DNA of 64,000 nucleotides from Paraglaciecola sp. L3A3 (GTDB lineage: Bacteria; Pseudomonadota; Gammaproteobacteria; Enterobacterales; Alteromonadaceae). The stretch is from NCBI RefSeq assembly GCF_009796765.1, contig NZ_CP047023.1, positions 2,463,501 to 2,527,500 on the forward strand. The letters run 5' to 3'. Positions 40,578 through 62,969 of the stretch are shown piece after piece. Positions within the stretch are counted from its first letter, which is position 1. Every line of letters begins with the position of its first letter. Both the position numbers and the translations under genes were made by a program. The notes beneath the pieces were generated by a model. It did no database searches and was not told the origin of the DNA. It worked only from the letters and a program-made list of their open reading frames with translations.

Positions 40578-40726
40578 TATGGCATCCATGCCTTTTTTCT
40601 AGCCGCATCCCTGCGGCCCGATTTACTTCTTTTCAAAAAGGTTACCTAGACACCCATTTTAAAATTTAGCAAAAATCTGGTTTTGTTCTAAGCTTTAAGG
40701 TATTCAAACAACCAAGGATGGTCGAT

Positions 40727-41263
40727 ATGCCCCAGTCACGTAAATCCCAAATTTCTCTTGTTGATACTCCTTATTACCATTGTGTTTCTCGCTGTGTTCG
40801 CCGCTCATTTTTGTGTGGCGAAGATAAATTCACAGGTCAAAGTTACGAACATAGACGGGGTTGGGTAGAAGAGCGTTTGTTGTTTCTTGGCTCTGTATTC
40901 TCAATTGATATTTGTGCTTATGCGGTGATGAGCAATCATACGCATATAGTGTTATGTGTTGATAAAGAAGAAGCCGATAAATGGTCATTAAAAGAAGTAC
41001 TTTATCGTTGGCATCAATTACATAAAGGCACATTACTTAGCCAACGGTTTATGCGTGACGAGTCACTCAGTAAAAGTGAGTTATTCACCTTACATGAAAC
41101 GATTAGTATTTATCGTCAACGTCTTTATGACATCAGCTGGTTTATGAGAAACCTCAATGAATACATAGCCCGTGAAGCAAATAAAGAAGATAACTGTACA
41201 GGCAGGTTCTGGGAAGGGCGATTTAAATCTCAAGCGCTGCTTGATGAAAGCGGGTTACCTTGA
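40727..41263 (+). pseudogene. IS200/RAYT-like transposase, copy A, 3'-truncated by copy B
   Basis: Residues 1-174 match copy B almost exactly and include the HUH motif 'NHTHIVL' and the 'LNEYIAR' region with the catalytic Tyr. Reading then runs into the left terminal repeat of element B, which supplies the codons for 'GLP' and the stop. The upstream terminal repeat TTACCTAGACACCCA is at 40642-40656. The ATG at 40727 is preferred over 40718 because CCAAGG (40712-40717) abuts the latter. The 3' end of copy A seems to lie beyond element B at 42530-42758. Confidence 0.85.
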
Positions 41264-42529
41264 CACCCATTTTAAATTTTAGCAAAAATCTGGTTTTGTT
41301 CTAAGCTTTAAGGTATTCAAACAACCAAGGATGGTCGATATGCCCCAGTCACGTGAATCCCAAATTTCTCTTATTGATACTCATTATTACCATTGTGTTT
41401 CTCGCTGTGTTCGCCGCTCATTTTTGTGTGGCGAAGATAAATTCACAGGTCAAAGTTACGAACATAGACGGGGTTGGGTAGAAGAACGTTTGTTGTTTCT
41501 TGGCTCTGTATTCTCAATTAATATATGCGCTTATGCAGTGATGAGTAATCACACTCATATAGTTTTGTGTGTTGATAAAGAAGAAGCCGATAAATGGTCA
41601 TTAAAAGAAGTGCTTTATCGTTGGCATCAATTACATAAAGGCACATTACTTAGCCAACGGTTTATGCGTGACGAGTCACTCAGTAAAAGTGAGTTATTCA
41701 CCTTACATGAAACGATTAATATTTATCGTCAACGTCTTTTTGACATCAGCTGGTTTATGAGAAACCTCAATGAATACATAGCCCGTGAAGCAAATAAAGA
41801 AGATAACTGTACAGGCAGGTTCTGGGAAGGGCGATTTAAATCTCAAGCGCTGCTTGATGAAAGTGCAGTATTAGCCTGTATGGCTTATGTGGATTTAAAT
41901 CCCATTCGAGCCAAAATGGAAAAAACACCTGAAACGTCCAAGCACACCAGCATTCAAAACCGTATCCACAGTCTAATCAAAGGAGAACAACCCACAAAGC
42001 TTATGCGTTTTGTGGGTAATCACAGACAAGATATGCCCAAAGGCATTGCTTATAGCTTGATAGATTACTGTGAATTAGTAGACTGCACCGGCAGGTGTAT
42101 TAGGGAAGATAAAGCGGGTCATATCGAACATCACAGCAGTCCTATTTTAGAACGGCTAGGCCTTGATTCTGACCAATGGTTGACCCTAACCACAGAGTTC
42201 GAACAACACTTTCATACAGCGGTAGGCAGTGAGCATATGATGCAACAATTTAAACACCACACAAACCATCAACGCATACGAGGGATGGCAAAGGCCAAAG
42301 CTTTACTACAACAAGCCTAAACAATAAAACCTCCAACTATATTAAATCAACCCACACAGTGGCGATTCTTGCTGCCTGCAATTTGAGTTAAGTCGCATAT
42401 TGCTCGGTATTTGTTACATCTAAACCATAAAACCCTATTTTAAAATCAAAGAATACAAATATTCAGGTAACTTTATGTTTGTTGATTAAACACCAATTGA
42501 GTATTTTACTACTTTGGGTGTCTTGGTAA
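41255..42529 (+). mobile_element. Complete 1,275-bp IS200/RAYT-like element, copy B, with terminal inverted repeats
   Basis: The left end TTACCTTGACACCCA (41255-41269) and right end TGGGTGTCTTGGTAA (42515-42529) are inverted repeats matching at 13 of 15 positions. Between them are a 70-bp leader, one transposase gene and a roughly 209-bp non-coding tail. The element lies inside copy A, whose gene it interrupts at about codon 175. HUH transposons usually lack true inverted repeats, so these ends may be recognised as hairpins, as in RAYT/REP systems. Confidence 0.8.
41340..42320 (+). CDS. IS200-like/REP-associated tyrosine transposase (copy B, intact)
   Basis: A 326-aa Y1-type HUH transposase of the RAYT-like long class. 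The N-terminal 'THYYHCVSRCVRRSFLCGED' opens the domain, the metal-binding HUH is H71-T-H73 in 'MSNHTHIVL', and the nucleophile is probably Y146 in 'RNLNEYIARE', followed by 'GRFWEGRFKS' and 'YVDLNPIRAKM', which are RAYT hallmarks. A roughly 120-residue C-terminal region follows. The ATG at 41340 has AAGG 9 bases upstream; the ATG at 41331 is too close to it. This copy should be active on sequence grounds. Confidence 0.85.
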   Translation: MPQSRESQISLIDTHYYHCVSRCVRRSFLCGEDKFTGQSYEHRRGWVEERLLFLGSVFSINICAYAVMSNHTHIVLCVDKEEADKWSLKEVLYRWHQLHKGTLLSQRFMRDESLSKSELFTLHETINIYRQRLFDISWFMRNLNEYIAREANKEDNCTGRFWEGRFKSQALLDESAVLACMAYVDLNPIRAKMEKTPETSKHTSIQNRIHSLIKGEQPTKLMRFVGNHRQDMPKGIAYSLIDYCELVDCTGRCIREDKAGHIEHHSSPILERLGLDSDQWLTLTTEFEQHFHTAVGSEHMMQQFKHHTNHQRIRGMAKAKALLQQA

Positions 42530-42758
42530 TCATTACTACAACAAGCCTAAACAATAAAACCTCTAACTATATTAAATCAACCCACACAGTGGCGATTCTT
42601 GCTGCCTGCAATTTGAGTTAAGTCGCATATAGCTCGGTATTTGTTACATCTAAGCTAAAAATCCTATTTTAAAATCAAAGAATACAAATATTCAGGTAAC
42701 TTTATGCTTGTTGATTAAACACCAATTGAGTATTTTACTACTTTGGGTGTCTTGGTAA
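42530..42758 (+). repeat. Displaced 3' tail of a RAYT-like element with right terminal repeat
   Basis: It starts with the last codons of the transposase gene (TTACTACAACAAGCC then TAA) and runs through the non-coding tail to a right end TGGGTGTCTTGGTAA at 42744-42758. It differs from the tail of copy B by a few bases. The likely source is copy A, from which the middle of the gene is now missing. Confidence 0.75.
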
Positions 42759-42767
42759 AATTCTTTC

Positions 42768-43459
42768 AATTACATAAAGGCACATTACTTAGCCAACGGT
42801 TTATGCGTGACGAGTCACTCAGTAAAAGTGAGTTATTCACCTTACATGAAACGATTAGTATTTATCGTCAACGTCTTTATGACATCAGCTGGTTTATGAG
42901 AAACCTCAATGAATACATAGCCCGTGAAGCAAATAAAGAAGATAACTGTACAGGCAGGTTCTGGGAAGGGCGATTTAAATCTCAAGCGCTGCTTGATGAA
43001 AGTGCAGTATTAGCCTGTATGGCTTATGTGGATTTAAATCCGATTCGAGCCAAAATGGAAAAAACACCTGAAACGTCCAAGCACACCAGCATTCAAAACC
43101 GTATCCACAGTCTAATCAAAGGAGAACAACCCACAAAGCTTATGCGTTTTGTGGGTAATCACAGACAAGATATGCCCAAAGGCATTGCTTATAGCTTGAT
43201 AGATTACTGTGAATTAGTAGACTGCACCGGCAGGTGTATTAGGGAAGATAAAGCGGGTCATATCGAACATCACAGCAGCCCTATTTTAGAACGGCTAGGC
43301 CTTGATTCTGACCAATGGTTGACCCTAACCACAGAGTTCGAACAACACTTTCATACAGCGGTAGGCAGTGAGCATATGATGCAACAATTTAAACACCACA
43401 CAAACCATCAACGCATACGAGGGATGGAAAAGGCCAAAGCTTTACTACAACAAGCCTAA
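42768..43459 (+). pseudogene. IS200/RAYT-like transposase, copy C, 5'-truncated
   Basis: From 42768 the sequence matches copy B from residue 98 ('QLHKGTLLSQRF') to the end, but the HUH half is gone. A reading frame can be drawn back to a TTG inside the preceding terminal repeat, but that is not a true start. Without the HxH metal site it cannot act as a transposase. Its junction with the right terminal repeat of the preceding tail (42758) has 9 bases of unrelated sequence. Confidence 0.85.
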
Positions 43460-48645: not shown

Positions 48646-49965
48646 ATGAAATATCATCCCATAACAGACTCTATCAAGCTTATTCCCATGCAATTGTCAT
48701 TGTTGCGTGATTCTAGCCATGATACTAAAAGCGAATTTGGCCAGGTGTACCCATCGTTAGATTTGTATTTAAATGAATTCGAATCTTCAGGTATCCACGC
48801 CCGAAAAGATCTCGAGTTATTACTGCGCTTTTTAACCAATGTGGTTGGTAGCTCTGTTGGCACTCAAAATCGTTTTAGGAATGAAGCCGAACGTTTTATG
48901 CTGTTCTGCTGGAATGAAAAGCAAACCTCTGTTTTACAATCTGGCATCGATGACGTTCGAGAATATATTGATTGGATTTGGTCGCCACCTAAAGCCCTTA
49001 TTGCCGATACTACTATTGCCAGTCGATTTAAGTCACAAGGCAAATCTGATATTCGTTTAGTGAATCAGACATGGCGTCCTTTTGTGCATCGTTTATCTAA
49101 GGCTGAGCGTAAAACCCAATCTTTAATTACCCCTGAGAAAACGGGTAAGAGCCAAGTTAAAGCAAGGTACAGCCTGAACCAAACATCACTGCAAAATTCT
49201 TATGCGTCGCTCAATGTGTTTATTAAAGAGCTAACCGAGCAAGAACATATGCAACGTAACCCAGTGTTATTAGTGAAAAAAAGCTGTAAGTATCTGATAA
49301 AAGGTAAAATTTATAAGCCACCACACACCTTAGACGATGATATTTGGCAACTCTTTATTGAAACCCTGACAGACGCTGCAGATCTAAACCCAATCTATGA
49401 AAAACACCGGTTTTTAGTATTGTCTTTAAAGGTGTTGTTTTTAAGAATTTCAGAACTGGCAGATAGAGATTATTGCACCCCAGTATTTGGTCATTTTAGA
49501 CAAGATGTTTCCGGTGAAGGTTGGGTTTTGAATATAATCGGCAAAGGTAAAAAAGAGCGCTTAGTCACAGTACCAGACGGCTTTATTGACAATGTATTGA
49601 TACGTTATAGAGAATCTTTAGGTTTGTCTCCCCTGCCCCAGATTGATGAATCTACGCCTATTATGCCTTCACAAAAAACCGGTGAACCGCTGCATCAAGA
49701 CAGCTTGAACAATATGGTTGAAGAAGCCTTTGATTTAGTGATTAAACAATTAGTAAAAGCCAAAAAAGTTCAGCAAGCGCGTTCTATAGCTGGGGCATCG
49801 TCACACTGGTTAAGACATACAGGTGCCACCCAAGCGTTAAGTGAAATAAGCGAAACCATGTTAGCTGAAGAGTTAGGTCATGCAAGCGTGAAAACCACAG
49901 TAGAAATTTATGTAGCGCCCGCTCATAGAGACAGAATTAAAACTGGCGTTACCAGAAAACTGTAA
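48646..49965 (+). CDS. Tyrosine recombinase (site-specific integrase)
   Basis: A 439-aa site-specific recombinase. An N-terminal SAM-like core-binding domain (about 60-225) precedes the catalytic domain (about 235-435). All six catalytic residues are visible: R267 in 'LRISEL', K300 in 'IGKGKKERL', H387 and R390 in 'SHWLRHTG', H412 in 'LGHASVKTT' and the nucleophile Y422 in 'EIYVAP'. It is longer than XerC/XerD (about 300 aa). A perfect dif-like palindrome is directly upstream. No tRNA or att repeat was found. It may have carried in the stress-related genes on its right. Confidence 0.88.
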   Translation: MKYHPITDSIKLIPMQLSLLRDSSHDTKSEFGQVYPSLDLYLNEFESSGIHARKDLELLLRFLTNVVGSSVGTQNRFRNEAERFMLFCWNEKQTSVLQSGIDDVREYIDWIWSPPKALIADTTIASRFKSQGKSDIRLVNQTWRPFVHRLSKAERKTQSLITPEKTGKSQVKARYSLNQTSLQNSYASLNVFIKELTEQEHMQRNPVLLVKKSCKYLIKGKIYKPPHTLDDDIWQLFIETLTDAADLNPIYEKHRFLVLSLKVLFLRISELADRDYCTPVFGHFRQDVSGEGWVLNIIGKGKKERLVTVPDGFIDNVLIRYRESLGLSPLPQIDESTPIMPSQKTGEPLHQDSLNNMVEEAFDLVIKQLVKAKKVQQARSIAGASSHWLRHTGATQALSEISETMLAEELGHASVKTTVEIYVAPAHRDRIKTGVTRKL

Positions 49966-49996: not shown

Positions 49997-50617
49997 TTAT
50001 TCTGATTCAATAATTTCTTGTTCTAATTTAAAGCGCACTAGTTCGGCTAAGGTTCTTACTTCTAGTTTTTTCATCACTTGAGAACGATGCACTTCTACTG
50101 TTCGTTCGCTTATTCCTAAGTCATAAGCTATCGCTTTATTCATCTCACCTCTAGCAACACGTTCAAAAATTTGTTTTTCGCGCTCTGAAAGTAGCAGTAA
50201 TTTATTAAGTCTAAGATTAAGTTCATGCTGTTTAACACTTCTACTAGAATCAATTGTGAGGGCTTGATTGATCCTGTCTAGTAAGTCTTGTTCTCTAAAT
50301 GGCTTACGGATAAAGTCAATTGCACCTTGGCGCATCGCTTCAACTGCCATTGGAATATCGCCATGACCTGTGATAAAAATAATCGGTAAGTTTGAACCTA
50401 ATGTTTTTAACCTTTTTTGCAGATCTAACCCTGTCATTCGTGGCATACGAATATCAAGTATCAAACATCCACTCATTTTACTGTCATAATCATCAAGAAA
50501 ATCGACTGCATTACTGTACATTTTGACCACATGACCATCTATTTCAAGTAACAGGCTTAGGCCGTCGCGTATGCCTTCATCATCGTCAACCACATATACA
50601 GTTTGTTGTTCTTTCAT
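49997..50617 (-). CDS. FixJ-family two-component response regulator
   Basis: A 206-aa regulator. The receiver domain (about 5-120) has the acidic pocket 'VVDDDEG', phospho-acceptor D55 in 'LILDIRMP', Thr in 'FITGHGD' and Lys in 'FIRKPF'. The LuxR-type helix-turn-helix (about 140-200) has 'LSEREKQIFERVARGEMNKA' and 'GISERTVEVHRSQVMKKL'. Its start is one base after the stop of the upstream kinase gene, so they are coupled. FixJ proteins activate promoters in response to redox or oxygen through FixL-type kinases. Confidence 0.93.
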   Translation of the reverse strand: MKEQQTVYVVDDDEGIRDGLSLLLEIDGHVVKMYSNAVDFLDDYDSKMSGCLILDIRMPRMTGLDLQKRLKTLGSNLPIIFITGHGDIPMAVEAMRQGAIDFIRKPFREQDLLDRINQALTIDSSRSVKQHELNLRLNKLLLLSEREKQIFERVARGEMNKAIAYDLGISERTVEVHRSQVMKKLEVRTLAELVRFKLEQEIIESE

Positions 50618-50618
50618 A

Positions 50619-52403
50619 TTAGGTCTCTTGTTTGGTTGTAGGCAAGGTAAAATAAAAGGTTGCGCCGTTATCAGTATTATTTAAAAAATTTATGTGCCCT
50701 TGATGTGCTTCTATAATTGCTCGGCTAATAGACAAGCCCATTCCCATACCTGTTTTGTTGGTGGACGCAAAGGGCTGAAACAGATGTTTTTCTTCGTTCT
50801 GAGATATTCCATTACCCCTGTCAATGACTGCAAATACAACTGAATCATTTTGGTTGCTTTCGCTCACTCGTATGGTAATTACATTACCATTTCGGCAGAT
50901 TATTGCTCGCATAGAGTTTATGGCATTACGTAAAAGGTTAAGAATAACTTGTTGAATTTGCACAGTATCAACCATAACGATTGGTAGTTTTTTTGCAATG
51001 TTTGCTTCAATTTCAATATCGTAAATACGCGATTCGGCTTCTGCCAGTTTAATCACTTCTGTGACTAACTTGTGGCAGTTAGCCGCTTGTTTTTTTGTTT
51101 CATTTTGTCTTGTCATTAATTGCAGACGTTCAATAATGGCCCCGGCTCTTTGCGTATGTAAACTTAACTTGTCAAAGATTTCGGGTACTCGTTTATCGTC
51201 CCCTGAATCTAACAAACGCTTACCTGCTTGAGCAAATAAAGATATGGCAGCAAGTGGTTGATTAATTTCATGAGCAATACCAGAAGCCATTTCACCCAAG
51301 GCATTTAAGCGGTCTACGTAAGCCAATTGATCTCTATGAATACGGGCTTCATCTTCTGCGGCTCGTTGTTGTGAAATATCTCGAATCGAGACTACAAATG
51401 TTGGAGTTTTTTGTGCGGGAACTTCACTAACAGAGAACTTTACAGGAAATGTCATACCGTCCTTTTTTAAGGCGTTAGTTTCTTTGCCAACAGTATGGAG
51501 CCTTGCTGTACTGATGTTTGCTGTTACATTATAAATATCAGTCTCTTGCTCTTGCCAGAATTGAGGTACGAGTAAAATAATATTGTTGCTCTGCATATAA
51601 TCTTTAGAATAGCCAAACATAGTTTCAGCTGAGCGATTGAAGCTTGTAATCATCCCTGTGGAATTAATGGTTATAACAGCTTCTATTGCTGTATCAACTA
51701 ATGCCTCCGAAAAAGCTTGGGTTTCTTTTAGGGCTAATTCAGCTTGTTTTCGAGCGGTAATGTCACAAACAAAGCCTTCAATACAAACCTCGTTATTACC
51801 ACTGACTCCAACGCTACGGCCACGATGCCACACCCAACGTGATAGACCACTTTTGGTATTAATTCGACATTCAAAATCATACATTTTATTATTATATACT
51901 GCGTCATTTACCCATTTTATGACGTCATCACGATCTGCACTGTCTATCAAATCAATCAAACTGATATGTCCATCTATGATGTAACTTGCCTTATAACCCG
52001 TTAGAGAAAAACATGCGTCACTTAAAAATTCAACGCGCACCTCTATCTCTTTACTAGGGTTAATCACAACTCTGTAAGCTGTCCCGGGTAAATTTTGTAA
52101 TAACGTTTTCAATTGTTCTGCGTTGTCATTATTGGCAGCGGAGATCTTGCTGTTTTTCATAGATTGATGAACAAACAATACAAACAGAGTGCTGAATAAG
52201 ATAACAATACTCAGGTAAAACATTAGTGTACCTTCATCACTAAAGATGAAAGAAATAGGTGGATAGGCATTTTGTAGAGACCAAATCGTGTACAAAATTG
52301 CCATGCAACAGGCTCCAGTCAAAATCCCTGACCACAAGGAAATAAAAGGAGAAACTTTTCTCAGTAATAAATAGCTGGGTGCACTTATCAACCGGGTCCT
52401 CAC
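50619..52403 (-). CDS. FixL-like PAS sensor histidine kinase, kinase 1 (coupled to FixJ)
   Basis: A roughly 590-aa inner-membrane kinase. Two membrane helices lie at about 25-45 and 60-80 with almost no periplasmic loop. A PAS domain (about 100-215), a second PAS (about 225-340), HisKA with H378 in 'GIAHEINQPLAAIS', and HATPase_c ('NLLRNAINSM', 'DRGNGIS', 'GMGMGLSIS') follow. The second PAS is like the heme PAS of FixL but lacks the heme-ligand His (Thr at that place). The annotated GTG start has a poor ribosome site; a TTG at 52391 with GAGG upstream is also possible. Confidence 0.92.
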   Translation of the reverse strand: MRTRLISAPSYLLLRKVSPFISLWSGILTGACCMAILYTIWSLQNAYPPISFIFSDEGTLMFYLSIVILFSTLFVLFVHQSMKNSKISAANNDNAEQLKTLLQNLPGTAYRVVINPSKEIEVRVEFLSDACFSLTGYKASYIIDGHISLIDLIDSADRDDVIKWVNDAVYNNKMYDFECRINTKSGLSRWVWHRGRSVGVSGNNEVCIEGFVCDITARKQAELALKETQAFSEALVDTAIEAVITINSTGMITSFNRSAETMFGYSKDYMQSNNIILLVPQFWQEQETDIYNVTANISTARLHTVGKETNALKKDGMTFPVKFSVSEVPAQKTPTFVVSIRDISQQRAAEDEARIHRDQLAYVDRLNALGEMASGIAHEINQPLAAISLFAQAGKRLLDSGDDKRVPEIFDKLSLHTQRAGAIIERLQLMTRQNETKKQAANCHKLVTEVIKLAEAESRIYDIEIEANIAKKLPIVMVDTVQIQQVILNLLRNAINSMRAIICRNGNVITIRVSESNQNDSVVFAVIDRGNGISQNEEKHLFQPFASTNKTGMGMGLSISRAIIEAHQGHINFLNNTDNGATFYFTLPTTKQET

Positions 52404-52484
52404 AACACATTGGAAATTTTAAATAGACATTAATTATATTAACTATGTAAGCAGGGTCCAATTGTGGTTGTCCACATAAATTAC

Positions 52485-54569
52485 TTATGGGTAGCTATTT
52501 TCACTCTGAACAGTAGGAAGTATGAAATAAAATGCAGATCCAGCAGTAGGATTTTTAGCATAGTGAATACTCCCACCATGCTCTTCTATGATACTTTTTG
52601 AAATAGATAAACCGATTCCAGTGCCATTCTTTTTAGTGGAAGAAAAAGGGGTAAATAGCTTGCAAACCATGCTATCAGATAAGCCACATCCTGTGTCTAT
52701 AACCGATATTTTAACGCTTTTTTGCGTCATTAATTGCATCTGAAGTTCAATAATATTACCGTTTTCAAGCCCCCTATCCTGCATTGCTTCCATACCATTT
52801 CGCAGCAAATTTAGCAGCACTTGCTGTATTTGCACTACATCGACAAATACCTGTGTGAAAATTTTACAGTGATTAAACTTTATATTTATATCTCGCATTC
52901 TAGCGTCTGGCTCTGCTAGATTAGCCACTTCATTAATGAGCTTAAAACAATCAACCAATTCCTTTTGTCTATCCCCTCGTTTGGTCATTGCTTGCATTCT
53001 TTCTAAAACCGCACCAGCGCGATGGGAATGTTGACTTAACTTGTCAAATATTTCAGGCATTCTGGCAAAATCACCTCTGCCACATAGTTTTTTACCCGAT
53101 TCAGAATAGAGTGAAATGGTGGTTAAAGGTTGATTGATTTCATGAGCAATACCCGCCGCCATTTCTCCTAATGAATTAAGTCTATCGGCATGAGCCATTT
53201 GCTCAATATGAATACGCTTTTGGTCATCTGCTGCCCTTTGTTGGGTAATATCTCGGATCAAACCAACAAACACTCTATCTTGTTGATTTTTAATTTCGTT
53301 CACCGATAAATGAATGGGAAATATACTGCCATCTTTGCGTTGTGCTTCCAGTTCACGTCCATTTCCAATAATTGCCGATTTATTGGTCTTTAAATAATTA
53401 CTTAAGTAGTCATCATGTTTACTGGCGTATTCTTGAGGCATTAACAAATTGATATTTTTGTTTTTAATTTCATCAACTGTATAACCAAACATTTTTTCAG
53501 CAGCATCATTAAAACTTTGTATAAGACCTTTTTGATCGATTGTTATCACCGCTTCCACAACAGATTTGACTATGGCATCTGAAAATTCGTGGCTACGCAA
53601 TAGATCAACTTCGGCTTGTTTAATATTGGTAATATCAGTAATAAACCCTTCAATAATCGATTCATTATTGATTATAGATTTAACCGCTTCTCCTCGCTCC
53701 CAGATTAACCTTATACGATTGTCTTTAGTCAAAATGCGATATTCAAGTTCAAATAAACTATTATTTTTTATGGCTTGATTTACTGTTTGATAAACACGAT
53801 GGTAATCTTCGCTATGGATTATCTTACCCCACAGAATACTGTGTGTTTCGTATTCTTGTTTAGTGTAGCCAGTGACAGTCAAACAACCTTCGCTAGCAAA
53901 AATCATTGGCCAATTTTCTTGATTCCAAGATTGATAAGCCATGCCTGGTAAGTTTTTTAATAAATGCGCTACTTTATTCCTATCGTCATTAATGACTCTT
54001 GCTTTATTTCGGGCAGACAAAGCAGCGTAAACAGATAAACATATAAACAGCCACAACAAAATACCCAGCCACAGCAATATTTGGTTCATTTTAAAATAAG
54101 AATTATTTAAAAAATCGGCTTTTGGTAAGATGTTAATATGCCATGTTTGATTATCTAGGGTGAAGCTCGATTGTCTGCTCCATTCACTCTGATCTCCTAA
54201 GGTCGTTGATTGATTTGAATAGCGTTTTTTACCATTAACAGATAAAACAAACTGGTGTTCTATTAGTAAATATGAAGGGATTAAACTTTCGATGTATTGA
54301 TCTGTAATATTTTCCTTAAATTGAGTTGAATTAGCAGCCGTAACAGAGGTATTCATTTTATCTATAAGATTTTGTTGCAGTAATGAGGCAATACCTGTTG
54401 CGGTATTTTGGGTTAAACGATTCACATGTTCACGTGCTTGTGATGAGATAGAAAGTAAAGTTATGGCGATAATGGCAGCAGCAAATGCGCCAACAATAAT
54501 TGAGTACCATAAGTGCGCGTAACGTGAAAAAAATTGGACTATTGACACTTTGTTACTAGGGTTTGTCAT
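52485..54569 (-). CDS. FixL-like PAS sensor histidine kinase, kinase 2 (candidate heme sensor)
   Basis: A 694-aa kinase with a membrane helix at about 17-40, a roughly 125-residue periplasmic domain, a second helix at about 168-190, PAS 1 (about 200-320), PAS 2 (about 330-445), HisKA (H476 in 'GIAHEINQPLTTIS') and HATPase_c. PAS 2 aligns with FixL heme PAS: H385 in 'KHDDYLSNY' and R405 in 'IGNGRE' take the places of FixL H200 and R220, at the same 20-residue spacing. It is a paralogue of kinase 1, 81 bases upstream of it, so both may feed one FixJ. Confidence 0.92.
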   Translation of the reverse strand: MTNPSNKVSIVQFFSRYAHLWYSIIVGAFAAAIIAITLLSISSQAREHVNRLTQNTATGIASLLQQNLIDKMNTSVTAANSTQFKENITDQYIESLIPSYLLIEHQFVLSVNGKKRYSNQSTTLGDQSEWSRQSSFTLDNQTWHINILPKADFLNNSYFKMNQILLWLGILLWLFICLSVYAALSARNKARVINDDRNKVAHLLKNLPGMAYQSWNQENWPMIFASEGCLTVTGYTKQEYETHSILWGKIIHSEDYHRVYQTVNQAIKNNSLFELEYRILTKDNRIRLIWERGEAVKSIINNESIIEGFITDITNIKQAEVDLLRSHEFSDAIVKSVVEAVITIDQKGLIQSFNDAAEKMFGYTVDEIKNKNINLLMPQEYASKHDDYLSNYLKTNKSAIIGNGRELEAQRKDGSIFPIHLSVNEIKNQQDRVFVGLIRDITQQRAADDQKRIHIEQMAHADRLNSLGEMAAGIAHEINQPLTTISLYSESGKKLCGRGDFARMPEIFDKLSQHSHRAGAVLERMQAMTKRGDRQKELVDCFKLINEVANLAEPDARMRDINIKFNHCKIFTQVFVDVVQIQQVLLNLLRNGMEAMQDRGLENGNIIELQMQLMTQKSVKISVIDTGCGLSDSMVCKLFTPFSSTKKNGTGIGLSISKSIIEEHGGSIHYAKNPTAGSAFYFILPTVQSENSYP

Positions 54570-54837: not shown

Positions 54838-55275
54838 CTAATCCTCGTGAATACGTACCGCCAATACATCTTGTTTAACACCATGCAGAACTGAATTTGC
54901 GGTAGAACCGAGTAGTAATTTAATACCGCTGCGGCCATGAGTACCAATGACAATTAAATCAGCTTTAATTTTGTCTGCGATATGTTTAATTTCATCCCCT
55001 GCTTCGCCTACTTTTAACAGTACTTTTTCCTCGGCAATACCGAACTGTTTGGCAATCCCTTTTAGCTTTTCACTGGCAAGTTCAATCCGTGTTGTATCTT
55101 CAACCATGTCTAAATTGGCCCCATATAAATAGGGTTGTATATAAATAGAAGGCATGGGAATATAAAGTAAACTTAGCTCATCAACTGAATCACATATAGT
55201 TAATGCCTTTTGAATAACGCTTTCGTATTGGGAATTGATATCAATGGCGACTAGTACATTTTTGTAATTACTCAT
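54838..55275 (-). CDS. Universal stress protein, UspA family
   Basis: A 145-aa single Usp domain (Rossmann-like): 'NVLVAIDINSQYESVIQKAL' at the start, 'ADLIVIGTHGRSGIKLLLGS' near residues 105-124 and a final strand 'DVLAVRI'. The nucleotide loop normally reads G-x2-G-x9-G-S/T; here the second gap is eight residues, one short, so ATP binding is uncertain. It lies between the FixL kinases and the voltage-sensor/CorA gene and is transcribed as they are. Usp proteins rise in growth arrest and redox or ion stress. Confidence 0.92.
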   Translation of the reverse strand: MSNYKNVLVAIDINSQYESVIQKALTICDSVDELSLLYIPMPSIYIQPYLYGANLDMVEDTTRIELASEKLKGIAKQFGIAEEKVLLKVGEAGDEIKHIADKIKADLIVIGTHGRSGIKLLLGSTANSVLHGVKQDVLAVRIHED

Positions 55276-55438: not shown

Positions 55439-56827
55439 TCAGCGTAACCACCCTTTTATTGCAAAAATATATAAACTCAGGGTCATTGTTACCCCTACCC
55501 CAAATGCAATTTGAGAAAGGGTTGCCGGCCATGGTGCATCTGTTATATTCATGCCAAGTAGACCCCCAATTGTTGCTGGAATTAGTGCCAATGCTGTAAG
55601 TAAAGCCAATAATCGCATTACCCGATTCATTTGAAAGGATGCAACATTAAGGCGTAGATCAACTAAACCCTGCAATGATTCTCGTATATCTTCTATGTTG
55701 TCATAAAGATCCAATGCATCATCAGCTAAAAACCTAAATGGCTCTCTAGCGCTGGGACTCGCATTGGCGATATTTATTTTGCCACTGTGTAAGTCTCTGA
55801 TCACGCTTTTCAGATGCTTCATACTGGCACGAGTTTTTAAAATGTCAGCCCTGAGGGTAAATGTACGTGCTAAAAAAGCGTCGTCTGCTAATAGACTTTG
55901 CTCAAGCTCTAGATTAGTTAGCATGACTTCAATAGTTTCAGTTACTTGGGTATAAGCTGACATTATTTCACTGACCAAGGCTAACGTCGCTCTGACAATC
56001 TTCGGAGTATTAGTATCAATACTAGACAATCGTAATTGTACTTTTTCATCTAGATCAGTATGCTCGCGACTCATGACAACAACATTTACAGCAGTACCGA
56101 CCAATAAAATCGGCGTACGTATCAGACGTTCGCCAGGCAACATCGGCCTTGGGTAGCGCACAAAAAAGGTAGAAAAATTTTCAAGAGTATCAAAACCAGC
56201 ACTCGATGAGCTGAACAGGCCTTTTACTGCACTGACAGGTACTCGCAATGCTTCAGTGATAGAGATTAGACGCGATTGATCTAAACCAGAAATGAATAGC
56301 CAATCTGGTTGGCCATTACTGATCCGGTTTAAACCTTGCTCCCAGCTAATGACTTCAAATTGTGTCCCTGTGTTACCTAGTAACTGTACTTTTAGCTCGG
56401 TTTCTGGGTGATTAGGACTATTATTAGCCGTTTTGTCGTCAATTTTAAGCGCTAGACTTGACCTGGCTCCCAATAAAGCAATGCGTCCCACTCTGATTAG
56501 TCTGAAAACTGGCGAATGTCTCAGTACATCCGGTACCAAAGGAATAAAAGCAATTAAAGCACTTAATATAATCAATATATCAATGACACGCCTGCCATCA
56601 ATTACAAATTCCATTTTATATTTAGCCAGCAATAAACCACTTGTATATTCCAAAATAAACAACAGGATAATGGCATATTCTAGTCCTGCCAATATGAGGT
56701 TTGTAGAGTCATTAAATTCAAATACTAATGGAGCTATAAACAAAAATAACGATAAAAGAGCAAAGAAGCCAAGCACGGCATCAGTGAGAAATCGTTCAAT
56801 TAACTTGATGAGAATTATCTTTTTCAA
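55439..56827 (-). CDS. Voltage-sensor-domain/CorA fusion membrane protein
   Basis: A 462-aa protein that joins two known modules. Residues 1-125 look like an S1-S4 voltage sensor: S1 about 15-36, S2 about 45-68 with F57-x-x-E60, S3 about 80-98 with D83, and S4 'FRLIRVGRIALLGARSS', with R109, R112, R115 and R122. Residues about 145-462 are a CorA-type Mg2+/divalent channel: cytoplasmic domain with 'DWLFISGLDQSRLISITEAL', a long stalk helix, TM1 ending in the signature G425-M426-N427, and TM2 (about 437-457). No S5-S6 pore is present. The TTG start has AGGAG 8 bases upstream. It lies between the Usp and MscS genes. Confidence 0.85.
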   Translation of the reverse strand: MKKIILIKLIERFLTDAVLGFFALLSLFLFIAPLVFEFNDSTNLILAGLEYAIILLFILEYTSGLLLAKYKMEFVIDGRRVIDILIILSALIAFIPLVPDVLRHSPVFRLIRVGRIALLGARSSLALKIDDKTANNSPNHPETELKVQLLGNTGTQFEVISWEQGLNRISNGQPDWLFISGLDQSRLISITEALRVPVSAVKGLFSSSSAGFDTLENFSTFFVRYPRPMLPGERLIRTPILLVGTAVNVVVMSREHTDLDEKVQLRLSSIDTNTPKIVRATLALVSEIMSAYTQVTETIEVMLTNLELEQSLLADDAFLARTFTLRADILKTRASMKHLKSVIRDLHSGKINIANASPSAREPFRFLADDALDLYDNIEDIRESLQGLVDLRLNVASFQMNRVMRLLALLTALALIPATIGGLLGMNITDAPWPATLSQIAFGVGVTMTLSLYIFAIKGWLR

Positions 56828-56925
56828 ATTTGTTACTCCTGAGGCACATATACAGAGTCTCCTTATTCCAGGTTCTTAGCCTGATTGACTTAGCAACTAA
56901 CAACTAGACGCTAAAGTAATGTTGT

Positions 56926-57963
56926 TTAATCTGTTTTACTGTCCTGATTTTTTAAGCGCTCTTCCTCTTCTTCAAGTTGGCGATTTAACTTTGTTAATTC
57001 AACTTCAATTGTTTCACGCTCTACATCGCTTAAGGTTTCTTTGCCTTTTTCTAAGTTCGCAGTGTGTTGTTCAATTGCGGTTTGAATATTTGTGATGGCT
57101 GAGGCCATTTCAGCTTTATCAAAGGCCAGCTTCTCTAAATTGTTTTCATTACTATCAACTTTAGGCTCAGAATATTGTGGGATGATAGCTTGTTCCCCCA
57201 TGACACGTGTGTTCATAAAGTTAGGAGATACGATTTCTATTTTGTCTGCATGTAAGCGATCTAGTACAGCATTATACAGCTTGGCTTTAACGGATAATAA
57301 ATGGCTTATATCTGCTAAATGTCCAGCAATTCTATAAGTCACAGAAAAGTCGCCTAAACTTTGGATTTGTACAAATCCTTCTGTTAAACCAGCATCTTCT
57401 GCGGCTAAACATAATTGCTTGGCAATGCGTTGTCTTGAAATGTCATAGCCTAAAGAAATATCAATCGACACAATCGTACCTGAACTTTTTACTACTTTTA
57501 CTGGATAGGTGACCATATGGATATTAGGGATTGTCACAAGATCACTTTTATCTGTTTGGATTTCAATGTGCAACAAGTTCATTTCTGTTGCTCGGCCTGT
57601 AATATTATCTACCGTAATGTAATCACCTAACTTGATATTTTTAATTATCCTTAGCATAACGCCAGCCAAGATATTGCTGATAAAAGTAGTGGAAGAAAAT
57701 GCAATTGCGGCACTGAGTAAAATACCAAATAAAGTTAATAATTGACCTCGTAGCGCATCACTTAACGGTAAAGCAATAATAATTGCTACCACAGAGACTA
57801 AGGTCAGAGACAACATTATGAACTGAAAAAGAAACTTACGTTTTTGCCAACGCTCTTTCAAGTAATGATTAAGGACAGCTAGCAGTATAAAACTAAAAAA
57901 TATTGTGATTAAAAGGATCACAATATTATAACTCGCAGAAAACATGTCCAATATATATGTCAT
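56926..57963 (-). CDS. MscS-family mechanosensitive channel
   Basis: A 345-aa protein with three membrane helices (about 10-32, 45-65, 72-105). The third has the Gly/Ala-rich pore pattern 'SAAIAFSSTTFISNILAGVM', followed by the beta domain ('LGDYITVDNITGRATEMNLL') and the C-terminal alpha/beta vestibule to about 250. A further 75 residues form a charged coiled coil ('ERETIEVELTKLNRQLEEEE') not present in E. coli MscS. It should vent solutes upon hypo-osmotic shock. It is in line with the CorA-fusion gene (98-base gap). Confidence 0.9.
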   Translation of the reverse strand: MTYILDMFSASYNIVILLITIFFSFILLAVLNHYLKERWQKRKFLFQFIMLSLTLVSVVAIIIALPLSDALRGQLLTLFGILLSAAIAFSSTTFISNILAGVMLRIIKNIKLGDYITVDNITGRATEMNLLHIEIQTDKSDLVTIPNIHMVTYPVKVVKSSGTIVSIDISLGYDISRQRIAKQLCLAAEDAGLTEGFVQIQSLGDFSVTYRIAGHLADISHLLSVKAKLYNAVLDRLHADKIEIVSPNFMNTRVMGEQAIIPQYSEPKVDSNENNLEKLAFDKAEMASAITNIQTAIEQHTANLEKGKETLSDVERETIEVELTKLNRQLEEEEERLKNQDSKTD

Positions 57964-60510: not shown

Positions 60511-61404
60511 TTATTTTGCTAATAACTCATAGCCTGCCAATACATCGTTAAGCTCTTCGTCAATTGAATTTTGGCGCCAGCGATTGAATTCTCGACCAAG
60601 ATTTTCAAGTAACTCATCAATGTTTTTTTCAGCACGTTGCATCGCTGCTAAGCGGCTGACATTTTCGCTAGCGAGTGATTCAGCGCATGCACGGTAAAGT
60701 GAAATAAAAACATATTCTCGAATAAGCGCCCTGACAGTAGCGGTAGTACTGCATAATATTTCGGGTAATAGTTTAGTGGGCCAAGGGATTTGAGCCAGAG
60801 TAAGTTGCCATTGCCGATCTAATGGTAACAATCTTTGGGATACGGGTTGATACAAGGTACCTACAGTCGGCTGGTTGTGAAAAACATAGACACTAGCGGA
60901 TTCAATTTGCGATGCATATTTTTCACTGTCGATCTGAATATTTCTAATCAAACCTGCAATATCGTTGACACTGGTTGGTACCGTAAAACCTTTGGCCATA
61001 TTAAAGCCCGCGTCAGCAAGGCGTGAATAAACTCGTTCACTCACAGCCCAAATCAACGGTTTACCACCAATATCCGCTAGGGTTTTGATGGCAAAATCAG
61101 CGACATCTTCATTGAATTGGCCAACTAGGCCTTGATCTGAACCAAATATAATCACCCCAATAACTTCATTGTTGTGTTTATTGGTCGGCAGATTTGTGGT
61201 AATTGCGGATATGTTGGATTCAGACGCACGTAAACTGGCACTCAAGCCCAGCTCAACAGTTCGGTAATAATCAGCTAATGCGCTTACAGACTGTTCATAT
61301 TGGCTAATGCTAGAGGCCGCAAGCGCCTTCATAGTGCGAACCACGCCTTTAAGATCGCTAGCACTGGCTATCTTATGACTTAGATTGGCTGCAGTGTTGC
61401 TCAT
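60511..61404 (-). CDS. atpG: N-ATPase (alternate F1F0 ATPase) gamma subunit
   Basis: A 297-aa central-stalk subunit. The N-terminal helix 'HKIASASDLKGVVRTMKALA' and the C-terminal 'ENVSRLAAMQRAEKNIDELL' form the rotor coiled coil, and 'VIIFGSDQGLVGQFNE' is the central Rossmann part. It couples F1 catalysis to rotation of the c ring. It is the last gene of the operon, sharing one base with the atpA stop. The order c-b-alpha-gamma, without a separate delta gene, is that of the Na+-type N-ATPase and not of the housekeeping atp operon. Confidence 0.9.
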   Translation of the reverse strand: MSNTAANLSHKIASASDLKGVVRTMKALAASSISQYEQSVSALADYYRTVELGLSASLRASESNISAITTNLPTNKHNNEVIGVIIFGSDQGLVGQFNEDVADFAIKTLADIGGKPLIWAVSERVYSRLADAGFNMAKGFTVPTSVNDIAGLIRNIQIDSEKYASQIESASVYVFHNQPTVGTLYQPVSQRLLPLDRQWQLTLAQIPWPTKLLPEILCSTTATVRALIREYVFISLYRACAESLASENVSRLAAMQRAEKNIDELLENLGREFNRWRQNSIDEELNDVLAGYELLAK

Positions 61405-62969
61405 TATGCATTGGCCTCAGTGGAATGATGCTGCACTATGCCTTGCTCTACTAAAAATCCGGCTAACGCTTTAGTGGCTAGTTTAATGATGATAGATCGG
61501 TCTTCATTGCTTAATTTTGCTGGGCTGTTAAATCGTTGACAAACCTCAGGCGGTAAATTAACCACAGCCTTACGCAAAATATTTTTAGCTTGATCCATCT
61601 GTCCTAAAGGGATGTTATCAAATAAGTTTGAAGTCAGAGCTAGCAGCGTAGTGATTTGTTCATGCACTGGCAGTGGCGACGATTCAGCTTGTTTAAGGCA
61701 AGCACGGATCCGTCGGCCATGTTCAATCGATTGAATAGTATCTCGATCCATACGAGCACCGAAACGGGCAAAAGTTTCGAGCTCTTCAAATTGCGCGTAA
61801 GCCAGTTTTAAGTTGCCAGCTACAGAGCGAAATGCTGCTAATTGGGCTTTCCCCCCCACCCTAGAAACAGATTTTCCTACATCAACTGCGGGTAAAATAC
61901 CTAACTCAAACAAAGAAGGTGACAAATATATTTGTCCATCTGTGATAGAAATTAGATTAGTTGGAATATAAGCCGAAATATTTTGCGCTTCAGTTTCAAT
62001 AATGGGCAGTGCAGTTAACGAACCACCACCACGCTCATCACAAAGGTGAGTAGCTCGTTCCAGTAATCGTGAATGTATATAAAAAATATCCCCAGGAAAG
62101 GCCTCTCGGCCCGGCGGGCGGCGTAACAGTAGGGATAGTTCGCGATAGGCTCTAGCATGTTTGGTTAGGTCGTCATAAACAACCAATACATCGCGGCCCA
62201 TTTCCATAAAATATTCAGCAATACTAGTAGCCGCGTAAGGGGCAATGTATTGCAAACCAGGCGGCTCGTTGCCTTCTGTGACAACTACAACTGTATAGGC
62301 CATTGCACCCTGCTTACGGAGTATGTCTACCGTTTTAGCCACAGTTGAAGCGCGTTGTCCAATCGCACAATATACACAAATGACGTTTTTGTCATGTTGG
62401 TTCAAAATGGTATCAATGGCAATCGCAGTTTTACCCGTTTGCCTATCACCTAGGATAAGCTCTCGTTGACCACGGCCCACTGGGATCATGGCATCAATCA
62501 CGACCAAACCGGTTTGTAGTGGAACTGTAATAGGTGAGCGGTCCATAATTGCTGCAGCGGGTCGTTCAATAGGTAGTCGCTGGTTAGTTTCAATTGTACC
62601 GCCATTATCAAGTGGCCTGCCAAGGGGATCGATCACTCGACCTAATAATTCTTCTCCAACTGCGACATCCATGACGCGACCACTGCGACGCACCTCATCA
62701 CCGGCTTGTAAGTGAGAATAGTCGCCGAGTAACACCACACCAATTTCGTCAGCATCTACATTAAAGGCGATACCAAGTACATCTCCTGGAAAAATAATTA
62801 ATTCTTCAAATCCGACTCCTGGCAGCCCAGATACTTTAGCAATACCGGTGGCCACATTGGTGATAGTCCCTACCTCATATGCTATCAATTCAGGCACAAA
62901 AAATTCTGTCGTTTGGCGGATATCGGCAAAGGTAGTCTCGAGAACACTGTTCAGGCTTTCATTTATCAT
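61404..62969 (-). CDS. atpA: N-ATPase alpha subunit
   Basis: A 521-aa non-catalytic nucleotide-binding subunit of the F1 head. The beta-barrel N-terminus ('[20 protein letters not shown]'), Walker A 'GDRQTGKT' at 174-181, '[20 protein letters not shown]' and the arginine-finger region 'SISRV'-like '[12 protein letters not shown]' are all seen. It overlaps atpF by 4 bases (ATGA) and atpG by 1 base, so the three are translationally coupled. Sequence and gene order fit the alternate (N-type) ATPase found as a second copy in marine bacteria. Confidence 0.93.

Follow-up and report, generated by a model that had tools for sequence, protein, structure and literature searches.

Voltage-sensor domains (VSDs) are known to drive P-loop channels, to conduct protons in Hv1, and to control a phosphatase or one exchanger, according to the part of a 2025 review that was available (PMC12332018). 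The systems named in that part are Hv, Kv, a phosphatase and SLC9C1, and the word "CorA" is absent from it. In the available part of a 2024 review entitled "Voltage sensors" (PMC13095418), the single match to the string "cora" apparently refers to corals. SLC9C1 is called the only known VSD-regulated transporter in the accessible portion of a 2023 paper (PMC10620092). In the CorA of Thermotoga maritima (TmCorA), the cytosolic metal sites M1 and M2 involve D89 and D253 (in part from PMC3629940). Searches that combined terms for CorA or magnesium channels with terms for voltage, read at the level of titles and abstract openings of open-licence PMC papers, revealed none about a VSD-CorA protein. 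The combination of a VSD with CorA is visible in databases, both Pfam domains being already assigned in 62 of 82 homologues, of which few carry a name ("CorA" or "ion transporter"), but no description of it or experiment on it was found.

The gene described here encodes such a fusion. It is located in a 64,000 nt stretch of the Paraglaciecola sp. L3A3 genome (the window), and this genome comprises 5.3 Mb in a single contig. The features are listed in Table 1. The gene probably encodes a CorA-type divalent-cation channel that has its own voltage sensor and is gated wholly or partly by voltage, as judged from conserved residues and domain homology. A wider proposal is made more tentatively, namely that the family forms a new class in which a presumably pentameric CorA-type divalent pore is combined with five canonical VSDs and voltage replaces gating by cytosolic Mg2+. 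The closest named relatives are proteins of P. arctica (79% identity) and an uncultured Paraglaciecola sp. (75%). A preliminary description of this DNA had proposed a VSD followed by CorA, and a reading of the translation locates F57, E60, D83, R109, R112, R115 and G425-M426-N427 where they had been placed. The domain order is borne out by Pfam, family profiles, conservation and the CorA fold. S4 leads into the linker and then into CorA in the sequence, in Pfam and in the model, and no S5-S6 pore follows it, as had been said.

Table 1. Coordinates of the VSD-CorA gene, its parts and the two flanking genes in the window.
Feature	Coordinates	Strand	Basis
Whole gene, VSD-CorA fusion, 462 aa, TTG start	55439..56827	-	ORF; homologues with equal length and domain order
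AGGAG, RBS-like, 8 nt 5′ of TTG	56836..56840	-	By eye from sequence
Voltage-sensor domain, about residues 12-127	56447..56794	-	VSD profile against PDB; Ion_trans in 22/22
S1 helix, residues 16-35	56723..56782	-	AlphaFold2 model, DSSP
S2 helix, residues 40-67, with E50 and F57-x-x-E60	56627..56710	-	Model; conservation test
F57-x-x-E60, charge-transfer-centre motif	56648..56659	-	Conservation, 93 full-length rows
S3 helix, residues 78-92, with D83	56552..56596	-	Model, DSSP; D83 in 93/93 rows
D83, third charge-transfer-centre residue	56579..56581	-	Conservation
S4 helix, residues 106-127	56447..56512	-	Model, DSSP; low pLDDT
S4 arginines R109, R112, R115	56483..56503	-	Conservation, 93 rows
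Linker, residues 128-145, fast-evolving	56393..56446	-	pLDDT; identity to P. arctica
CorA part, residues 146-462 (cytosolic domain, stalk, TM1, TM2)	55442..56392	-	
Long stalk helix and TM1, residues 358-427	55547..55756	-	DSSP on AlphaFold2 model
GMN motif, residues 425-427	55547..55555	-	Conservation, 93 rows
TM2, residues 437-458	55454..55519	-	DSSP on AlphaFold2 model
MscS-like channel	56926-57963	-	Flanks fusion gene
Universal stress protein	54838-55275	-	Flanks fusion gene

The query alone matches Pfam Ion_trans (PF00520) over residues 21-117 at E=0.0013 with 18.4 bits, and the excised VSD piece scores 23.3 bits; both values are under the 25-bit cutoff. However each of the 22 VSD pieces of the family has an Ion_trans match at E≤0.1 (the best at 5e-12), and a profile built from 22 VSD rows finds Nav, Cav and Kv channels of solved structure in the PDB. 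Thus the VSD homology is secured by the family matches, although the query by itself remains below cutoff, and the earlier reservation that profiles might show no VSD fold is removed. Single-domain matches of the profile include Kv4.2 (2.8e-11) and 4dxw (7.9e-11), the latter being NavRh, listed as "Ion transport protein". The match to Nav1.7 amounts to 7.3e-25 when summed across the four repeats, the best single repeat giving 1e-6, and in the alignment with the second repeat the family F, E, W and D sit on F, E, W and D. E50 and E60 are 10 residues apart, and E60 and D83 are 23 apart; Kv1.2 has spacings of 10 and 23 at the equivalent positions.

The AlphaFold2 model places the four helices of the N-terminal part (Table 1) where those of a VSD are expected, with low confidence in S4 (pLDDT about 52-56 at residues 101-120, and 41 at 121-130). 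In a structure comparison with this model, rows for Kv4.2 and Nav1.8 are present with an rmsd of 17-22 over mixed domains. The absence of a clean VSD row from that listing is no evidence against a VSD, since the CorA part fills the list.

Conservation was assessed on 111 aligned rows, of which 93 full-length rows were kept (88 without duplicates, as five are contained in another row). The 18 rows dropped are fragments, contig ends, broken frames and P0083, in which the GMN region reads GVS with a gap. F57, D83 and R109 are present in 93/93 full-length rows, and residue 60 is E in 92 and D in one. Position 112 is basic (R or K) in 88 of the 93, position 115 is R in 89, and residue 122 is basic in every row. 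A general loss of the S4 arginines, which the preliminary description had considered as evidence against a sensor, is not what the homologues display: the arginines are kept in most of them, R109 in all 93, alongside an intact GMN in 91.

A set of 42 rows, drawn from the 93 and mutually less than 70% identical, was used to compare the seven textbook VSD positions (50, 57, 60, 83, 109, 112 and 115) with random sets of seven from residues 12-128. The textbook positions have a mean conservation of 0.946, the random sets a mean of 0.587, and 0 of 200,000 random sets reach 0.946. F57, D83 and R109 are kept in 42/42 rows; E50 ranks only 28th and R112 20th of the 117 positions by conservation.

Against a voltage-gated channel, the gating charge is modest, with three to four arginines in S4, and its pattern varies; the low confidence of S4 in the model is a further point against it. 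L014 has L at position 112. The Methanomicrobiales rows L019, L021, L022 and L023 have both Q112 and Q115, with arginines at 103/106/109 or at 106/109, an outward shift of S4 charges that represents a natural voltage-sensor variant. Eleven extra rows outside the 93 (P0093-P0103) include ten with the VSD and P0099 without it; among them P0101 lacks R115, P0102 has W112 and P0098 has S at 103. A proline at position 106, within the every-third-residue register of the S4 arginines, is found in 84 of the 93 rows, and an acid at residue 16, at the cytoplasmic end of S1, in 41 of the 42; both are traits of the family. Residue 79 (56591-56593) is R in the query and, in most relatives, the W of an NPWR motif that precedes S3.

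The two halves of the protein appear to have evolved together. Relative to P. arctica, the VSD has a dN of 0.102 and a dS of 1.898, and the CorA part 0.111 and 2.689; with dS near or past saturation and one pair compared, only the low dN, alike in both halves, is interpretable. Identity to P. arctica is 83% in the VSD and 82% in the CorA part, and drops to 38% in the linker (residues 126-146), where the AlphaFold2 pLDDT is below 50 at residues 122-142. Pairwise identities of the VSD half and of the CorA half are correlated (r=0.85, 861 pairs). In a tree of the CorA part, the 36 fused proteins are on one side of a branch with support of 100/100 and the 16 ordinary rows on the other, the ordinary set being small, drawn except for TmCorA from the window's own class, and including one protein twice. 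These sequence comparisons indicate that the VSD and CorA domains are real, are joined in one frame and are inherited together.

To find fused and unfused relatives, the CorA part was also searched by itself. The search gave 99 proteins, and the CorA-part profile gave 83 at E≤1e-12, in each case among the 7998 candidates sharing most words that were scored. The matches are annotated with both domains or have the length of a fusion, and there are shorter ones in addition, five of which were read. P0086 (314 aa) starts just past the boundary of the VSD and linker, and may be a copy that lacks the VSD or a truncated gene call. P0099 (327 aa) has an N-terminus that looks unrelated, and may be a VSD-less relative.

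The loose, fast-evolving linker is one reason to consider the VSD as a passive membrane module, serving to anchor, assemble or localise the CorA pentamer, that no longer relays voltage to the pore. The altered S4 patterns of some members, and the proline that interrupts S4 in most rows, are consistent with this. It should be noted however that most of the voltage-sensing positions belong to the best-conserved ones in the domain (F57, D83 and R109 without exception in the 42 rows), and a mere anchor would have no use for them. In addition, constraint on the VSD equals that on the CorA part in the single pair compared. A passive role is considered unlikely, and a sensor that acts on the pore remains the preferred reading.

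The C-terminal part of the query matches Pfam CorA (PF01544) at E=1.4e-24 over residues 176-451. The family profile matches TmCorA at 2.8e-31, far better than CmaX (2.7e-5) or ZntB (1.4e-4). The model has the CorA fold, with a cytosolic alpha/beta domain, a long stalk and two C-terminal transmembrane helices. The match to Pfam CorA, the profile match to TmCorA and the modelled TM2 agree with the initial view that the remainder of the protein is CorA-like and ends with TM1, GMN and TM2. The two full-length rows without GMN read GTN and GEN, and more distant rows read GVS (P0083), GEN (P0100) and GVN (P0101).

Metal sites were compared in 30 fused and 42 ordinary CorA-family proteins aligned to TmCorA; the ordinary set represents 43 loci, reduced to 42 distinct ORFs and taken as ordinary CorA. 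Residues equivalent to N288, M291, L294, G312 and N314 of TmCorA are kept in 28, 28, 29, 30 and 29 of the 30 fused proteins, respectively. M291 and L294 are the hydrophobic gate residues of TmCorA, and their equivalents here are M404 and L407. The cytosolic sites differ. Asp at TmCorA position 89 is found in 0/30 fused proteins (Glu in two) and in 22/42 ordinary ones, in a region where the alignment is weaker than around 253. At position 253 the fused proteins have neither Asp nor Glu (0/30), whereas the ordinary ones have Asp in 24 and Glu in 10 of 42. His at position 257 is present in none of the fused and in 24/42 of the ordinary proteins, and in 23/30 fused proteins the residue is D or E; thus a shifted metal site is possible. 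Glu at position 320, in the MPEL loop that follows GMN, is found in 21/42 ordinary proteins and in 0/30 fused ones, all of which have a gap. Fisher p values for the four differences are 7e-8 to 8e-7, which overstate significance because the sequences are related.

The residues needed for voltage sensing and for the CorA pore are thus kept in the family, as far as the alignments indicate, and the aspartates of the tested metal sites are gone. D89 and D253 are not universal among CorA proteins, so their absence leaves membership in the superfamily intact. The loss of the metal sites does not prove that voltage has taken over, since 3 of the 42 ordinary CorAs also have no acid at both Mg2+-site positions, M1-site mutants of TmCorA are still able to close (PMC8865849, in the part available) and the D253K change leaves Co2+ transport unaltered (PMC3629940, in excerpt). 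The preliminary description had taken over from CorA in general the gating by Mg2+ on the cytoplasmic domain. The assignment to CorA stands, but this mode of gating may fail here, Asp being absent from both tested TmCorA site positions in 30/30 fused proteins.

The gapped MPEL loop also brings in a reading in which the VSD does sense voltage, yet the pore conducts a divalent ion other than Mg2+ or operates as a ZntB-like proton-coupled transporter. Two further CorA-family proteins are encoded in the genome and could serve for Mg2+, and ZntB and CmaX do match the family profile, if weakly. The profile match to TmCorA far exceeds both, GMN is retained in nearly all rows, and MjCorA likewise is missing MPEL (PMC3629940, in the excerpt available). 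We consider this less probable still than a passive VSD, and retain a divalent-cation channel of CorA type.

The VSD might also itself conduct, as an Hv1-like proton pathway for which CorA would be a regulator or partner. The selectivity aspartate of Hv1 (Asp112 in the human protein) is in the S1 core. Each of the S1 core positions 18-33 of the fusion family has an acid in at most 2 of the 42 rows, and the CorA pore residues are retained. That a bare VSD conducts protons in Hv1 (PMC12332018, in the part available) speaks for such a pathway, as does the acid at position 16. The suggestion in the preliminary description that the sensor may be a proton path has become less likely with the S1 core lacking a conserved acid, and we regard it as quite improbable.

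Lastly, the joining of two genes by an assembly or frame error is rejected, since nothing was found to support it beyond broken frames in some relatives (L017, L020, L024 and a copy in genome G150 with 13 stops) and the fusion recurs in the 93 full-length rows, or 88 once duplicates are removed, which come from numerous separate records and assemblies, including the 5.3 Mb single-contig genome; the assembly error named at the outset as a possible objection did not materialise.

For the preferred reading, a channel with its own voltage sensor that may gate divalent-ion flow by voltage, as the preliminary description had suggested, the following mechanism is proposed. The topology of the fusion fits, as both ends of a VSD are cytoplasmic and so is the start of CorA. 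Five subunits would assemble as in CorA, with five VSDs surrounding the ten-helix membrane pore. On a change in membrane potential, S4 would move through the centre formed by F57, E60 and D83. The linker is poorly conserved and predicted to be loose, which argues against a rigid lever such as the S4-S5 linker, and favours coupling by contact over traction on the linker. The S4 motion would then reach the pore where the VSD touches the transmembrane helices (TM2) or the cytosolic funnel, and would favour or block the opening of the hydrophobic gate at M404 and L407. Voltage may in this way add to cytosolic Mg2+ as the gating signal, or replace it. The direction of gating is a guess; there is a weak preference for a pore open at negative potential and shut on depolarisation, because CorA uptake has a driving force at negative potential. 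Closure on depolarisation would stop the loss of divalent ions from a de-energised cell.

The fusion is scattered among prokaryotes. Among named relatives, a readable VSD is found in 22 of 57 loci; 28 loci (L030-L057), in which the match is confined to the end of CorA, were set aside as ordinary CorA, and of the remaining 29 seven (L017, L020, L024-L028) are broken, truncated or of insufficient length. Alignment A1 used 42 of 82 homologous proteins, and L023 was omitted from alignments A2-A4 (A2 being the VSD profile) as a near copy of L022. Named holders of VSD-CorA are Pseudomonadota (alpha, beta and gamma), Planctomycetota, Verrucomicrobiota, Myxococcota and the archaeal Methanomicrobiales, and an additional relative is a Methanocellales protein. 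At E≤1e-40, with the window's own genome counted, the fusion is present in 2 of 22 genomes of the genus, in 4 of 196 sampled genomes of the family (one copy degraded), and in 1 of 394 sampled genomes of the order, with at most four candidates scored in the genomes listed. This rarity indicates that the gene is not essential, and its patchy occurrence may point to horizontal transfer. Locus L064 (G150:C74), which belongs to a different genus in the family, has a fusion copy with 13 in-frame stops that is apparently decaying.

The fusion gene is flanked by genes for an MscS-like channel and a universal stress protein (Table 1), which looked like a set of partners, and a cmaX-cfrX-cmpX operon is reported from P. 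aeruginosa. In 25 related loci neither neighbour was detected within 4.5 kb of the fusion at E≤1e-4, and both were likewise absent at E≤1e-6 from the rest of loci L001-L029 and L062-L064, several of which end at contig ends. An operon of the three genes was therefore dropped from consideration, the neighbours not being kept in related loci. The strand of the MscS-like and VSD-CorA genes also carries, upstream of both, genes for the gamma and alpha subunits of an alternate F1F0 ATPase at 60511-62969 (minus strand; TIGR03323 and TIGR03324, both above cutoff). In P. arctica (L001, 1-14844) the fusion is among genes for CNNM, a sulfate permease, a beta-CASP nuclease, phosphofructokinase, NhaA and a Na/Ca exchanger, and L003 also has NhaA. 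Taken together, the ion and energy genes of P. arctica and the alternate ATPase of the window may belong to an island for stress or ion homeostasis. Elsewhere in the window, two adjacent histidine kinases that look alike in sequence precede a FixJ-like response regulator (239 bits against a cutoff of 255) at 49997-54569 (minus strand); the first kinase is FixL-like, under the NCBIfam cutoff, and there are two kinases for the one regulator. Beside these genes, at 48646-49965 (plus strand), is a 439-aa ORF that we take, by motif, to resemble a tyrosine recombinase/integrase. Three near-identical tandem ORFs or fragments, repeated with truncations, are at 40718-43459 (plus strand), and presumably resemble a small transposase.

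If the proposal is true, the family would represent a voltage-gated channel with a pore unrelated to that of P-loop channels, and would tie the membrane potential of microbes to Mg2+ directly at the molecular level. With CorA as effector, an unrelated pore would join those known to be served by VSDs, the sensor would be shown to work on a different pore architecture, and control of microbial Mg2+ by membrane voltage would become testable. Natural experiments are within reach in the archaeal members with shifted S4 charges, with ordinary Mg2+-gated CorAs for comparison.

Compared with T. maritima CorA (PDB 8tmc, 2iub and 4i0u), the fusion adds an N-terminal VSD, and the fused proteins have no Asp at the positions of D89 and D253, a replacement at H257 and no MPEL loop. 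ZntB and CmaX, also of the CorA superfamily, match the fusion family much more weakly in sequence, and neither is known to have a VSD. The VSD resembles those of Nav, Cav and Kv channels in S1-S4, the F-x-x-E of S2, the D of S3 23 residues on, and the arginine at every third place in S4; it differs in that no S5-S6 (S5-P-S6) pore follows, the effector being a CorA pore. As in Hv1 the VSD is without S5-S6, but the S1 core has no conserved acid and a whole CorA is attached. SLC9C1, the sperm Na+/H+ exchanger, likewise has a VSD on a transport protein of another family (PMC6052114 and PMC10620092, in the portions available). It is however eukaryotic, and its VSD lies C-terminal of the exchanger, with a cyclic-nucleotide domain after it (PMC12332018, in the part available), whereas in VSD-CorA the VSD is N-terminal of a channel, in prokaryotes. 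Ci-VSP too combines a VSD with an effector outside the channel superfamily (same part of PMC12332018); its effector is a cytosolic phosphatase and the protein is monomeric, whereas that of VSD-CorA is a membrane channel of a pentamer-forming family. Ci-VSP and SLC9C1 are precedents, and count in favour of a CorA-type channel with its own voltage sensor.
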